A stretch of 64,000 nt of DNA from Candidatus Saccharibacteria bacterium (GTDB lineage: Bacteria > Patescibacteriota > Saccharimonadia > Saccharimonadales > Saccharimonadaceae): positions 868,001 to 932,000 of the forward strand of contig JAEUQU010000002.1 in NCBI GenBank assembly GCA_016789455.1, written 5' to 3'. Position 1 is the stretch's first letter. The number at the start of each line of letters is the position of its first letter. The notes under the pieces are model-generated. The model saw nothing but the letters and a program-made list of their open reading frames with translations. It was not told the origin of the DNA and did not search any database. This document shows positions 12,220 to 49,458 of this stretch, piece after piece. Made by a program: the position numbers and the translations under genes.

Positions 12220-12330
12220 TACCAGGTGTGTTGCTAATTGCTTAGCTCGCCTCTGGTTCCCATGACTTGCCCGTGTCATCACTGACCACAGCGTATCAAC
12301 GATACGCCTAGCGAACAAATCATGGAACAT

Positions 12331-15567
<3,237 letters not shown>

Positions 15568-15574
15568 ATGCATT

Positions 15575-37221: not shown

Positions 37222-37626
37222 CTACCGACGAAAAACATAGACGCTGGCCAGTATTTCAAAGACTATGAGCAATATGACACTGACCGTATCGAGCTGCTGC
37301 AGCGAACTCAGAGCCAGGATGATAATGGGCGCGATAGCCCAGGTGGCGGTGGCCGCCACCACCCGCGAAGAAGGCGCCGGACGCTGCGGCGCATGCTGTT
37401 CATCAGGGGCATCCTGCCGATATCGTAGTAAAAAATAAATATGTGCGCCCACTAGGAACAGCGCGAAGAAACACAGGTACATCAGTAAAAAGACCGCCAT
37501 GGCACCGGCCGGACCGGCCGATAGCGGACTGACAGTGACGATGACGCCGATAAGCGCCGCCAACGTCAACACCAACAGCAATGCTGCTGCCGGTAATGAA
37601 TTGAGGAAATCTGCCGCCTGTCTCAT
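37222..37626 (-). CDS. Four-helix membrane protein upstream of the secretion ATPase
   Basis: A 134-residue protein: helices near 10-30 (LPAAALLLVLTLAALIGVIV), 38-62 (GAMAVFLLMYLCFFALFLVG), 90-108 (WAIAPIIILALSSLQ) and 112-130 (SVILLIVFEILASVYVF). The start is placed at ATG 37626 (MRQAADFL), with AAGGA 9 nt upstream; two upstream ATGs are too close to that site. It lies 24 nt before the next gene and is likely part of the same operon and membrane complex. Confidence 0.75.
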   Translation of the reverse strand: MRQAADFLNSLPAAALLLVLTLAALIGVIVTVSPLSAGPAGAMAVFLLMYLCFFALFLVGAHIYFLLRYRQDAPDEQHAPQRPAPSSRVVAATATWAIAPIIILALSSLQQLDTVSVILLIVFEILASVYVFRR

Positions 37627-37659
37627 GATCGACATTCCTTCCCTACACATCCAGATCGC

Positions 37660-38605
37660 ATGGCCATACGGCCGACGCGGACGCGCGGATTAGTTGGATA
37701 CCGCCGTGCCTGAAAGCACGGCAAAAACCGGAGAACACCAAAAGTTAAAAGCATAAGCTTGAAAATTTCGATGTCACCAATACATCGCCCAATAACAGAT
37801 GGGCGAACATAAGCCGCAAGTACGCCGCCTGCACTATGCGCCCGCCGTCAAGTATACATCCTGCGCCACTGCGCGGATGTCACATACCTGGGGCTGCTCG
37901 CTTGCATAGCCACTGGCTGCATGCTTATTGCCTACTGCTTATCTACTGAACTGCTGCTACGCCGTCTTGCATTACGGCACCGTAGCCTCTCGGCCGTCGG
38001 GTTATAAAGATTCGGTTGATCGGAAGAAGTGCACTTGCGGCCGACGAACAGGCCGTGAGAACGGACTCGGGCCGCACCTCTCACAATGCGCCGACGATAG
38101 ATAGGTCCATACTGCCCTGATGCCATGAGAACATAGACCAGAACACTGTGATATGACCATATCTTGACTCCTTAGTGTATGGTGAGTGTACTTGCGTCCG
38201 CGGTACACAGGTATACGAATCATACTGCCAGTCTTGCTGGCGAACCAACCTGACTGTCGGGAGTTAAAGAACCTGGGCAGCGAATCCGCCGCTGTATATA
38301 GATTTATGGGCGCTCGCTGCACCAGGCAAACCGATCGCTCTCTGCCCCAATGAAGGGACGAGGGAGCACAACTTATACCACTCAAATAACAAAGATTGTT
38401 ACTCGTGCGGGTCACTCTTGCTGCGCTTCGGTGGACGCAAGCTACGCCATTACTGGCGGAGTAATGGCAACCGACCGGGTGGCAAAAAGCCGGTAGTCTG
38501 TTGCCAATGGCTCCGTCTAAGGGACGGTCGAGTGACAAGTTGTAGATGTTAAGGTGCGGGTACGAATGTTTGTTTTGGCTGGATGCTTTTGTCGCATCGG
38601 AGCTT
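37660..38605 (-). ncRNA. Candidate large structured non-coding RNA
   Basis: Almost 1 kb without a credible protein; the 224-aa minus-strand frame at 38002-38676 has composition unlike the neighbours and no ribosome binding site. A promoter at 38612-38640 points into it. Well-formed helices are packed in 38411-38536: GTCACTC (38411-38417) with GAGTGAC (38530-38536) closes a multibranch domain containing GCCATTAC/GTAATGGC (38446-38453, 38461-38468), ACCGG/CCGGT (38474-38478, 38490-38494), GGCAAC/GTTGCC (38466-38471, 38500-38505) and CCGTC/GACGG (38513-38517, 38523-38527). Others: GATGC/GCATC (38582-38598), GCCAG/CTGGC near 38227, CGCCCA/TGGGCG near 37785-37805 and GCCGTGC/GCACGGC near 37703-37722. 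It matches neither RNase P, tmRNA nor SRP RNA. Confidence 0.5.
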
Positions 38606-38611
38606 GTTATC

Positions 38612-38640
38612 ACCTTAGCACGGATAGGGGCGTAAGTCAA
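38612..38640 (-). promoter_or_regulatory. Promoter of the candidate large RNA
   Basis: Minus strand TTGACT (38640-38635), 17-nt spacer ending CGTGC, TAAGGT (38617-38612). Confidence 0.65.
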
Positions 38641-38723
38641 TAATTTACGGTGTTTTATTTGTAGTAATTCATACATTTCATTAAATTTTAATCTGTAAAT
38701 ACTAATTGTTGTAATAATAATTT

Positions 38724-38739
38724 ATACAACGCGTTGTAT
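38724..38739. promoter_or_regulatory. Perfect 16-bp palindrome, possible operator
   Basis: ATACAACGCGTTGTAT, a perfect palindrome in an AT-rich stretch between the large-RNA promoter and the GC-rich island. Such a site suits a dimeric DNA-binding protein. Confidence 0.45.
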
Positions 38740-38759
38740 GTTTGATAACGTAAAACTAC

Positions 38760-40329: not shown

Positions 40330-41504
40330 CTACCAGCCCCAGACCACAGTGCTGCGCAGCGGTGCCGGCAGATTCGGATCGGCATCTTCACACATCTGCC
40401 GCGCCAACTGCCCTACTTCCAGCGGGTCGCCATTCCACGTGGCCAAGCTGTGGCCGCCAGTCGACATGAAGACGGTCTGGACACCGATGGAATCATAAAG
40501 CGGGATTGCGTCAAAGTAGCGCTTATCGTCGATACGGAAGCGCCAGGCGGTGCGCTGGTCACGCGGAACGGTATGCAGCGCATCGGCCCAGGGCTGGTCG
40601 TGCAGCCGGGCGGCCAATGAGCTTCCTTCGTGTAAGGCGAGGTCCTCCTGCAGTTCGGCCAGAGTCATCGTCAAGTCCCCTACCCGCTGGACACAGAGAC
40701 CGACTACCAATTTTCCCAGCTTTTCCTGGTACAGCCGCAAGCCGTAGTGCCCTTCCTGACAGTTGCCGGCCGCATCAATAGTGCAACCGTTGCAGACGCC
40801 TGGCAGGCGCGAATGGCGGAAACTCTTCAGGCTGACCTGTCGGCCATCCGCCAGACGGTATGCGACATGCTGGTTAGAGCTGCCAGTGATGTGGCCATAG
40901 CCTCCTGGACGGCTGCAATGCGGTGCTCGGCCATCGCTGCGGGGAAGCCAGGTGTCTGTGTCTGCAAAAAATGTTCAATCGAGAGGCCGTAGATGCTGAA
41001 GTTGACACTGCTCAGCCCGGCCCGGCCAAGCTCTGCCCAGCCAATACTACCACGTTCGCCATTACTAGTCATTTTAACAACGTTATACGTCTGGGCGGTC
41101 ATTTCGACCAGTGCGGGTAGCTCAGGGTGCAGCGTCGGCTCGTCACCCGTCAAATGGGCTTCGGTGGTGCGGCAATGGTCACGTAACCAGGTAATCGTCC
41201 TGGCGTACTCGGCATCGGGCCGCACGATGGCCGGCACGAGGGTGCGCGCCTTGTCACTGGCGCCGCTCGGGCCGTCCGCGCGTATATATACGGAGCGCCG
41301 CAGCGCGTTGATGCCACGCCCACTGCCCGCGACGGCCGTGCCTTCGTTATGGCAGAAATGGCAGGCATTGCCGCAGACATCATTGACCTTGATGCGGAGC
41401 GGTCGGTCGGCCACCACGTCGATCGGCAGACCCTGCTCCAGCCGCGCAAGCTGCCCTGCCCGGCTGGACATGGAGGGTGGAAGCAGCTGCACGGTCACGC
41501 TCAT
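40330..41504 (-). pseudogene. Radical SAM protein, frame-disrupted (actinobacterial type)
   Basis: Two frames together make one radical SAM protein. The first (41504-40827) has the [4Fe-4S] motif CGNACHFCHNEGT (C-x3-C-x-x-C), a LTGDEPTLHP segment (GGEP-type) and an NFSIYGLSIEHF strand, then runs out of frame to a stop. The second (40330 to about 40930, no proper start) continues with NQHVAYRLADGRQVSLKSF, a C-terminal Cys cluster, CNGCTIDAAGNCQEGHYGLR, and VVGLCVQR. Such a C-E-E/Q-G-x-Y-G-x-R-L-x-x and V-G-V-C-I-Q-R ending is known to me from actinobacterial radical SAM peptide-modifying or nucleoside-type proteins. The junction lies near 40870-40920, and some central residues also seem to be missing. 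It is either a pseudogene or an assembly error. TATAAT is 10 nt before the ATG. Confidence 0.7.
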
Positions 41505-42526: not shown

Positions 42527-42935
42527 GGGGCTGACTTAAGCTTCGACGTCAGGACTTTAACAGACTATGCTTGCAAGCCGGATAACTCCCGCAACAGTTT
42601 TAATAGATGCAAACGCATTCACCAAAGCAAAAGAATTTGTCGCTTCGGCTGTTAACGCAGTCCGCACGCCGCAACTCGCTTTTGCGCCAGCTGCAGTTTA
42701 ACTAGCAGCCGTCGATCGCAAGATGCACGGTATTGTCGATCGGTGTCATATCTATCGTGCTCAGTTTCAAGTGCCCCGCTAGCGCTATGGAATGAAACTT
42801 TCAGCGCGAGCAGTGCAGTTACTTCGTCCAGATCTTTTGCTGCCCTGTTCGTTAATCACCCTGAACTGGACTATGCTTGTAGACGGCTAGTCGGTTACCA
42901 GACGGACCGGGGTGTGATTCCCCGCAGCTCCACCA
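42527..42935 (+). ncRNA. ssrA: tmRNA (SsrA) with 30-codon tag
   Basis: Rescues stalled ribosomes. The 5' end GGGGCTGACTTAAGCTTCGACG pairs with the 3' CAGCTCC, ending in encoded CCA at 42935. The T-arm analogue is CCGGGGTGTGATTCCCCG. The resume codon is GCA at 42609, preceded by AATAGAT (E. coli has AATAGTC before its GCA AAC). The tag frame reads ANAFTKAKEFVASAVNA then VRTPQLAFAPAAV and stops at TAA 42699-42701. At 30 residues the tag is longer than the usual 8-20, but its end is hydrophobic as expected for protease recognition. A terminator follows at 42950. Confidence 0.93.
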
Positions 42936-48127: not shown

Positions 48128-48136
48128 CCCTCATAT

Positions 48137-48502
48137 CAGATAGCCTGTAAGCCGGGTTCTGTCCATGGCGCGAAGCCACTGGATGATCATCTATCTACGC
48201 CGCCGGTCACCCGTCGGCTCTAGCGGATTATAAACGGCCCGCCAAGCGAGCAACTCCCATTCCAAAAGAACGGTGAGCAGACCTCCTTGCAGCAGACAGG
48301 GTTTACCTCCGTCGCATGTCACCATGCGCCGCTGTGGGCTCTTACCCCACTCGTTTCACCCTTACCGGCCGCATGGGCCGGCGGTTTCGTTTCTGTGACA
48401 CTTTCCCTAGGGTCGCCCCCGGTTGCCGTTAGCAACTGTCTTGCTCTCTGCTGCCCGGACTTTCCTCTCCCGCGGGTGCGGGAGCGATCATCCAGCTATC
48501 TG
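48137..48502 (-). ncRNA. rnpB: RNase P RNA, bacterial type A
   Basis: Catalytic RNA of RNase P (tRNA 5' maturation). On the minus strand: GAGGAAAGTCCGGGC (P4 5' region), CACAGAAACGAAACC, GGGTGAAACGAGTGGGGTAAG, and the 3' GGACAGAACCCGGCTTACAG. Helix P1 is CAGATAGC (48502-48495) with GCTATCTG at the other end (48144-48137). The length of 366 nt is normal. The 5' strand of P1 contains the stop codon of the upstream Nudix-RNase HI gene, so the RNA is probably cut out of that transcript. Confidence 0.96.
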
Positions 48503-49458
48503 ACATCGGCCATTATATCATCTTCGGCGATGGCTGCGGCATGCTCATCAAGAATACGGTTGACGATGGCGTCAGCCTCGTGGTTGAATTCACGACGGAT
48601 ATGGCCAAATGTGACGTGTTCAAACTGTTTGATCAGCGACGTGACGTGGTCGTGGATAGGCTTGAGCTCACTGTTCTTGACCTTGAAGGTGCCGTTCATC
48701 TGGTTGACGACCAGCTGGCTGTCGAGACGGAACTGGATGCGATGAACGCCCCGCTTGATGGCCGTTTCGAGAGCGAGGCGGACGGCTTCGTACTCGGCGC
48801 GGTTATTGGTAGTGATACCCAGGTATTCCCCGCCGTCCTGCAACAGATGGCCGTGCTCGTCATAAAGGACGAAGCCGGAGGCTGAGGGGCCAGGGTTGCC
48901 GCGCGAGCCACCGTCGGCATAGGCGATGACCAGGATGTCGGCGGCGTTTTTGTTGAGCTGGGGTGCGGCGGTGAGGCCAAGGGACAACAGGAATTCGGGG
49001 GTCTTGTCGAGGCCAAGCAGATTGTAGGTGGCTTCGGTGACATCACTCTGATGGATCTCGTGCATGGCACGCCAGGCGTATTTGCTGTGGCGGCCGGAGA
49101 GCTCGATGCCGGGCGGCGAATGGATGGAGACCAGGAAGACGATGTCGACGCGCTGGGTACGGTCATCGTAGACCGAGGGGTAGGCCCGGACATCGTAGAG
49201 CTGCAGGGTCTGCGGGTCGGCGCCGGTCTGCTCGGTGATAAACTTGGTCATGGCCTGCTGGGGCGACAGGCCGTATGGCAACTCGCCGCCAGGCAGCTCA
49301 TACTTACCAATGATGTCGCTGCGGCCCAGGGCACGCCGGAGCAGCAGGACTTTGCCGTTGTGTTTGATGATGGCGTAGACTGAGACTTTTTGTTTCATGA
49401 AGGTTTGCGCGGATGGGTGGTTGGTTTCATTAAACGTTCGGGTATTTAATGAAACCAT
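48496..49458 (-). CDS. Nudix hydrolase - RNase HI fusion
   Basis: A 320-residue two-domain protein. The N-terminal Nudix domain (about 20-165) has GKYELPGGELPYGLSPQQAM, where the Nudix box G-x5-E-x7-R-E-x-x-E-E is degenerate (the REXXEE part reads TKFITEQTG), so hydrolase activity is uncertain. The C-terminal RNase HI-like domain (about 175-310) has VIAYADGGSRGNPGPSASGF (first catalytic Asp), NNRAEYEAVRLALETAI (Glu), RLDSQLVVNQMNGTFKVKN (Asp) and REFNHEADAIVN (fourth Asp). The start may be ATG 49458, 17 nt after an extended -10, or ATG 49398 (MKQKVSVYAI). Its stop lies inside RNase P RNA. Confidence 0.88.
   Translation of the reverse strand: MVSLNTRTFNETNHPSAQTFMKQKVSVYAIIKHNGKVLLLRRALGRSDIIGKYELPGGELPYGLSPQQAMTKFITEQTGADPQTLQLYDVRAYPSVYDDRTQRVDIVFLVSIHSPPGIELSGRHSKYAWRAMHEIHQSDVTEATYNLLGLDKTPEFLLSLGLTAAPQLNKNAADILVIAYADGGSRGNPGPSASGFVLYDEHGHLLQDGGEYLGITTNNRAEYEAVRLALETAIKRGVHRIQFRLDSQLVVNQMNGTFKVKNSELKPIHDHVTSLIKQFEHVTFGHIRREFNHEADAIVNRILDEHAAAIAEDDIMADVR
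49425..49454. repeat. TTTCATTAAA/TTTAATGAAA inverted repeat
   Basis: GGTTTCATTAAA and TTTAATGAAACC, perfect 12-bp arms with a 10-nt loop, at the start of the Nudix-RNase HI gene. The 10-mer occurs six times in the window, all intergenic or at gene edges: 861, 901, 38676, 43014, 49425, 49445. Confidence 0.6.

Follow-up and report, generated by a model that had tools for sequence, protein, structure and literature searches.

A structured noncoding RNA gene ahead of a four-helix membrane-protein gene, probably from an RNA family of Saccharimonadia not recognised before

We identified a structured noncoding RNA gene at about 38605-38264 on the minus strand of the window (the whole 64,000-nt stretch of DNA that was analysed, from a Saccharibacteria genome of 1.44 Mb in two contigs); its expression is predicted. 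The RNA probably belongs to a family of Saccharimonadia (CPR/Patescibacteria) RNAs that had gone unrecognised, and is probably a core RNA of this group. The initial annotation had proposed a new structured noncoding RNA that is neither RNase P RNA nor tmRNA, and conservation, covariation, a conserved promoter and the lack of an Rfam match now give this proposal strong support. The proposed size has to be reduced: instead of an extent of about 950 nt and a transcript of 0.6-0.95 kb, we find an RNA of about 340 nt (38264-38605), as indicated by the matches of two covariance models (R1 at 38264-38369, R2 at 38259-38371), the alignment with a sister species and the minus-strand fold. Conservation in the sister species is confined to about 38256-38740, and the spacer between the RNA and the membrane-protein gene that follows it (37660-38250) does not align to the sister species and lies outside the RNA. 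We note that this spacer has no second copy in the genome, yet its minus-strand fold beats shuffles (z = -3.05).

The promoter that had been read as pointing into the region is found exactly there, at 38612-38640 on the minus strand (TTGACT, 17 nt, TAAGGT), and it is conserved upstream of the RNA in relatives, where a TTGAC-N17-TANNNT promoter is usually located 400-700 nt ahead of the membrane-protein gene. A match to TTGA[CT]-N17-19-TANNNT lies 5' of the RNA core in 85 of 104 loci (a count that leaves out one further locus, too short to test), as compared to 13% of mononucleotide-shuffled sequences; the window's promoter was not among the calls of a generic sigma-70 scanner at its threshold. 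We infer that the RNA starts about 6-7 nt past the -10 box and ends at a U-run. Both the conserved promoter and the 3' U-run lie on the minus strand; we therefore assigned the RNA to it and rejected a plus-strand reading.

All parts of the RNA lie on the minus strand. The -10 box is followed by a 5' hairpin, P1 (GATGC(GACAAAA)GCATC, 38582-38598), which has an A/C-rich loop in relatives, e.g. GTAAG(TCACAAAAACAAAAACA)CTTAC. An extended central domain (38411-38536) is closed by GTCACTC/GAGTGAC (38536-38530 with 38417-38411) and includes helix P2a (38465-38506; TGGCAAC 38506-38500 with GTTGCCA 38471-38465) and hairpin P2b (CGCCA(GTAA)TGGCG, 38445-38458; CGTCA/TGACG or CGTCA/TGATG in several relatives). 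Hairpin P3 (38337-38369) ends in GAGAGC and leads into a conserved linker, GATCGGT here and GGTCAGT in most relatives, which is followed by the long hairpin P4 (GCCTGGTGCAGCGAGCGCCC...GGCGGATTCGCTGCCCAGG, 38272-38327) with a near-invariant GCGC/GCGG core. The 3' end is a short U-run (TTCTTTAA, 38264-38271), a possible terminator (a terminator-like site with tail was found at 38290-38276). At 38330-38336 the linker reads GATCGG in the window and the sister species and is near-constant GGTCAG elsewhere.

The dense, nested helices described earlier were borne out, as minus-strand 38264-38605 has a folding energy of -127 kcal/mol (z = -6.4 relative to 100 dinucleotide-shuffled sequences), and the minimum-energy fold contains P2a, P2b, P4 and the central domain. 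The domain closed by GTCACTC/GAGTGAC is present in the window as had been claimed; it is recognisable, with both closing strands, in the sister species (locus L010). We also agree that there is no believable protein: the largest ORF (38002-38676, minus strand, 224 aa) is without a Pfam family, and translated comparison with the sister locus gives only pieces of 18-27 aa over the RNA, in several frames. A conserved reading frame in relatives, or no conservation at all, had been named as what would speak against the RNA; we looked for both and found neither. The RNA thus has its own promoter, a conserved structure and no reading frame, as expected of an independent structured noncoding RNA, with expression predicted from the sequence.

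Related intergenic regions and their covariation had been suggested as the check, and the search returned homologues with compensatory changes far above shuffles. Strong DNA matches were limited to the one other genome of the genus among 61 genomes searched (the window's own included). The sister species is collinear over 38261-38730 with the same gene neighbourhood, in three pieces of 87%, 71% and 73% identity (87% over 38261-38385), and a weak match in genome G033 (76%, 51 nt) lies upstream of a homologue of the same membrane-protein gene. Using the membrane protein (37222-37650, minus strand) as query, we found homologues in 61 of 120 genomes, with the RNA in most of the upstream regions; 52 of these 61 have a promoter-like match and were aligned, and nine were left out. 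A phage origin was rejected, as the phage matches amounted to no more than 14 short ones (about 32 nt), all from a single set of Salmonella phages.

With the covariance models, we were able to detect the RNA in 119 of 294 genomes of the window's order (R1, E <= 0.01) and in 98 of 294 genomes of the class (R2), five of the latter from other orders of the class. In a sample of the phylum, R2 hit 15 of 380 genomes, 13 of them in the class; of the two outside, G387 is a doubtful case, and a P4-like hairpin is clear in G614. Weak matches are lost in these large searches because their filters were stricter. The genomes hit in the order and class searches all contain a single match, except G204 (two, by R1) and G054 (two overlapping R2 matches on opposite strands). 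Searched against its own sources, R1 matches 27 of 34 at E <= 0.01, while L060, L018, L030 and L058 are weaker and L049, L068 and L070 remain unmatched at E <= 1. In the window's family, one or the other model missed many genomes, and two of these inspected by eye (L299 and L300) carry a diverged form; as part of the no-hit genomes were inspected, presence throughout the class is an extrapolation. A DNA pattern picked up 61 stretches in public genomes, 49 of which are titled Saccharibacteria, Saccharimonas, Saccharimonadales, Saccharimonadia or Patescibacteria and 12 just 'bacterium'.

Three alignments were examined for covariation. In A1 (3' domain, window's family), 17 of 24 predicted pairs show two-sided compensatory change, a result biased to the fold because its 29 sequences were picked for typical architecture from the 52 aligned. 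A2 contains 20 hits from other families and was aligned without a structure: 90.0% of its cells are paired (at most 46.4% in slid controls), 16 of 28 pairs show two-sided change, and there are 70 two-sided cells as compared to 23.1 in shuffled alignments. In A3 (77 distinct sequences), 93.3% of base-pair cells pair (slid controls at most 44.4%), 20 of 28 pairs show two-sided change, two-sided compensatory cells number 332 versus 90.9 in shuffles, and the covariation score is 0.394 versus 0.147, with none of 500 shuffles as high; the loci were picked by the pattern or by R1/R2 and A3 was fitted to the R2 structure, so these numbers lean towards the model. P4 is supported by compensatory changes in A1 and by its pairs in A3.

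The family features are a 5' A-rich hairpin, a covarying P3, an unpaired GGUCAG linker, and a long P4 with the GCGC/GCGG core. Other families of the order have a compact form, made of a hairpin with ACAAAAACAAAAAC loop, a variable P2, P3 (GCUCU...AGAGC), the linker GGUCAGUCA and P4 (e.g. GACGAUAAGCGCU...AGCGGAUUUAUCGUC). The RNA measures 170-200 nt in most families of the order as compared to about 340 nt in the window, and the extra central domain P2 of the window's version is probably an addition by its family to this compact form.

Within this domain, the initial annotation had pointed out two mutually exclusive stems, GCCATTAC/GTAATGGC and GGCAAC/GTTGCC, as in a switch. The two do overlap in the window, but a conserved switch is not supported, because relatives keep two compatible helices, P2a and P2b, and the competing hairpin is rare. 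Among 37 of the 52 family members (those with an anchor motif), 30 have P2a (GGCAAC/GTTGCC) as a helix of at least 8 bp (14% in shuffles), and only three, the window included, have an enclosing hairpin of at least 7 bp like GCCATTAC/GTAATGGC. P2b of at least 5 bp, whose pairing is compatible with P2a, is found in 25 of the 37 but also in 48% of shuffles, so it is weak evidence by itself. Two further pairings were tried. A pseudoknot between the A-rich 5' loop and the U-rich P4 loop was rejected (6.0 for own pairs, 5.95 for swapped ones, 56 loci). For pairing of the linker with a 5' CUGACC, the exact reverse complement was found in 17 of 51 members of the window's family (1.9 expected) and in 0 of 75 loci outside it; this helix is at most lineage-specific, and absent in the window.

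No credible Rfam 15 match was found at the RNA (4227 families; window searched at gathering thresholds and at E <= 5) or in relatives (12 loci at E <= 1 and seven distant loci at E <= 3). Elsewhere in the window, Rfam models identified RNase P RNA (48132-48503), tmRNA (42527-42935), rRNAs and tRNAs. RNase P RNA and tmRNA, structured core RNAs as the new RNA may be, are encoded in the same window, and differ from it in being found, at other positions, by their Rfam models. The window's tmRNA is about 4 kb from the new RNA, on the plus strand; in several relatives (L056, L021, L031, L043 and L025) tmRNA matches are near the new RNA, in tandem. The 23S rRNA match (12328-15568) spans 3241 nt for a model of 2925 positions, suggesting an insertion.

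The models of 6S RNA and of OLE RNA, which has an Rfam family, gave no match at the RNA in the window or in 12 relative loci. SRP RNA (4.5S), a core RNA as the new RNA may be, was rejected as its identity: there is no Rfam match at the RNA, and Ffh/FtsY are not detectable either. SRP RNA (RF00169) and the Ffh M domain (PF02978) were found in 0 of 41 genomes (the window's and 40 relatives), as compared to 11 and 14 of 14 controls, so this is a lineage without detectable SRP RNA. The SRP54 GTPase domain gave weak, mostly sub-threshold matches, over the cut-off in two of the 41 genomes. Loss of SRP in other CPR groups is reported in two papers (PMC4508563, PMC8080830). Another parallel is the raiA motif RNA (ModT), likewise a conserved structured RNA that is widespread in a bacterial group, and one that acts in trans, as the new RNA may do; it is described for Bacillota and Actinomycetota in the abstract of PMC11706538, whereas the new RNA has no Rfam match. 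Titles and abstracts of the literature searched, with most subscription journals and preprints outside its coverage, report no such RNA for Saccharibacteria, Patescibacteria or CPR, and the main text of two ncRNA discovery papers is without these organisms. The RNA family is real and apparently new, having no described match in the library searched; structured bacterial RNAs as such are well known.

Across the order, the gene that comes after the RNA encodes a four-helix membrane protein (142 aa, 37222-37650 on the minus strand in the window). Among distinct loci, this gene is found 3' of the RNA, on the same strand and mostly at a distance of 0-140 nt, in 75 of the 77 from outside the window's family and in 27 of the 28 that belong to the family (94 and 30 loci before collapsing by identical RNA sequence); in the two misses among the 77, the sequence ends 422 and 62 nt past the RNA. 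As the neighbour profile was seeded from the same loci, we made a separate check with a profile from the window's family only, which finds the gene in 59 of the 77, always downstream on the same strand and never in another place or orientation. Four helices are predicted for the protein (mean pLDDT 88), which has no credible Pfam or NCBIfam family, and none of the PDB folds matches its structure model at E <= 0.001 (best 0.94). Genes resembling those for the window's 150-aa protein and TraG-like ATPase come next in many loci of the order. A radical SAM domain protein is encoded at 40827-41504 on the minus strand of the window.

Beyond the order, L160 and L162 (another order of the class) keep the pair of RNA and membrane-protein gene before a different next gene, presumably pheS. 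No membrane-protein gene lies downstream in L163, and in L164 another ORF comes in between. Of four further loci of the class, L281, L283 and L284 have a P4-like hairpin before the protein gene and L282 has the protein gene without visible RNA; weak protein homologues in other classes (14 loci) sit behind ordinary coding genes, with no such RNA seen by eye. The protein therefore does not always need the RNA.

The explanation we tentatively place first, with somewhat less than even confidence, is that the RNA acts in trans as part of a ribonucleoprotein, is linked in function to the membrane protein encoded next to it, and has an organisation like that of OLE RNA/OapA. On this view, transcription would yield a separate, stable RNA that stops short of the membrane-protein gene. 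Protein would bind to its constant P4 core and linker, and the resulting ribonucleoprotein would work in trans, in a role that may be connected with the membrane protein or with the secretion-type operon, of which this gene is the first in most of the order. A P4 core and a linker that stay constant, with variable helices around them, are what a protein-binding or catalytic RNA would show. Gene order suggests a partnership of RNA and membrane protein, and their constant linkage may point to a shared task, as adjacency did for OLE RNA and OapA (PMC11332333), where a large structured bacterial RNA likewise has its gene next to that of a four-helix membrane protein. This layout is what the new RNA shares with OLE RNA (75/77 and 27/28 loci); OLE RNA is about 600 nt versus about 170-450 nt, belongs to a different lineage, is unrelated in sequence and forms a membrane-associated ribonucleoprotein with OapA, whereas for the new RNA such a partnership is suggested by gene order. 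A Tn-seq study describes the T4SS of S. epibionticum, a putative counterpart of the secretion-type genes here, as essential; none of the noncoding-RNA terms searched occurs in the main text of that study (PMC10633639). The more specific idea that RNA and membrane protein form a membrane ribonucleoprotein with a core envelope job in an SRP-less lineage, e.g. helping to target or assemble membrane proteins or the secretion-type machinery encoded by the genes after it, is very improbable.

The main rival, possible and less probable, is a cis-acting leader (riboswitch, attenuator or protein-binding leader) of the downstream membrane-protein/secretion-type operon. The common strand, the usual distance of at most 140 nt and an arrangement fixed over the whole order would all fit a leader. 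A terminator-like hairpin with U-run within 130 nt past the RNA, found in 46 of 75 loci outside the window's family (8.8% in shuffles) and near chance in the window's family (4 of 28; 9% in shuffles), would suit a transcription attenuator as well as a separate RNA. In many loci, however, a -10 box belonging to the gene itself stands just ahead of the start codon (TANNNT at 3-9 nt in 50 of 75 loci outside the family and 25 of 27 within it, counted without a chance control), about 0.6 kb separates the gene from the RNA 3' end in the window, and the gap in the sister species is also longer than usual. The riboswitch-type alternative stems of the window are not conserved in relatives, an unsystematic look noticed no alternative pairing between RNA and terminator, and L163 and L164 carry the RNA without the gene directly downstream. 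With terminators between RNA and gene, the gene's own -10 boxes and the 0.6-kb gap, a separate transcript seems the better reading, about twice as likely as a leader.

A trans-acting regulatory RNA (a base-pairing sRNA or a 6S-like regulator of RNA polymerase) to which the neighbouring gene is irrelevant seems unlikely. Its free-standing promoter and 3' end would agree with such a role, and the near-invariant unpaired linker GGUCAG(UCA) and the A-rich 5' loop could be seeds or binding sites; yet gene order with the membrane protein, kept across the order and part of the class, would be needless for an RNA blind to its neighbour, and Rfam gives no 6S match at the RNA. That the region is decayed or spurious, with chance helices or a hidden small protein, has next to no chance of being right: the unaligned 37660-38250 would fit, but covariation far above shuffles and slid controls (A2, A3) already contradicts it, unpaired positions are constant in sequence and the sister species has no matching reading frame.

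Structured RNAs that are widespread, present in one copy and retained across a bacterial class are rare. To our knowledge, few such RNA families are known in bacteria, and most of them do core jobs. With the two covariance models, a gene that annotation by Rfam misses in Saccharibacteria genomes becomes a clean annotation target. Because the class includes members that are in culture and genetically tractable, the function of the RNA can be tested.
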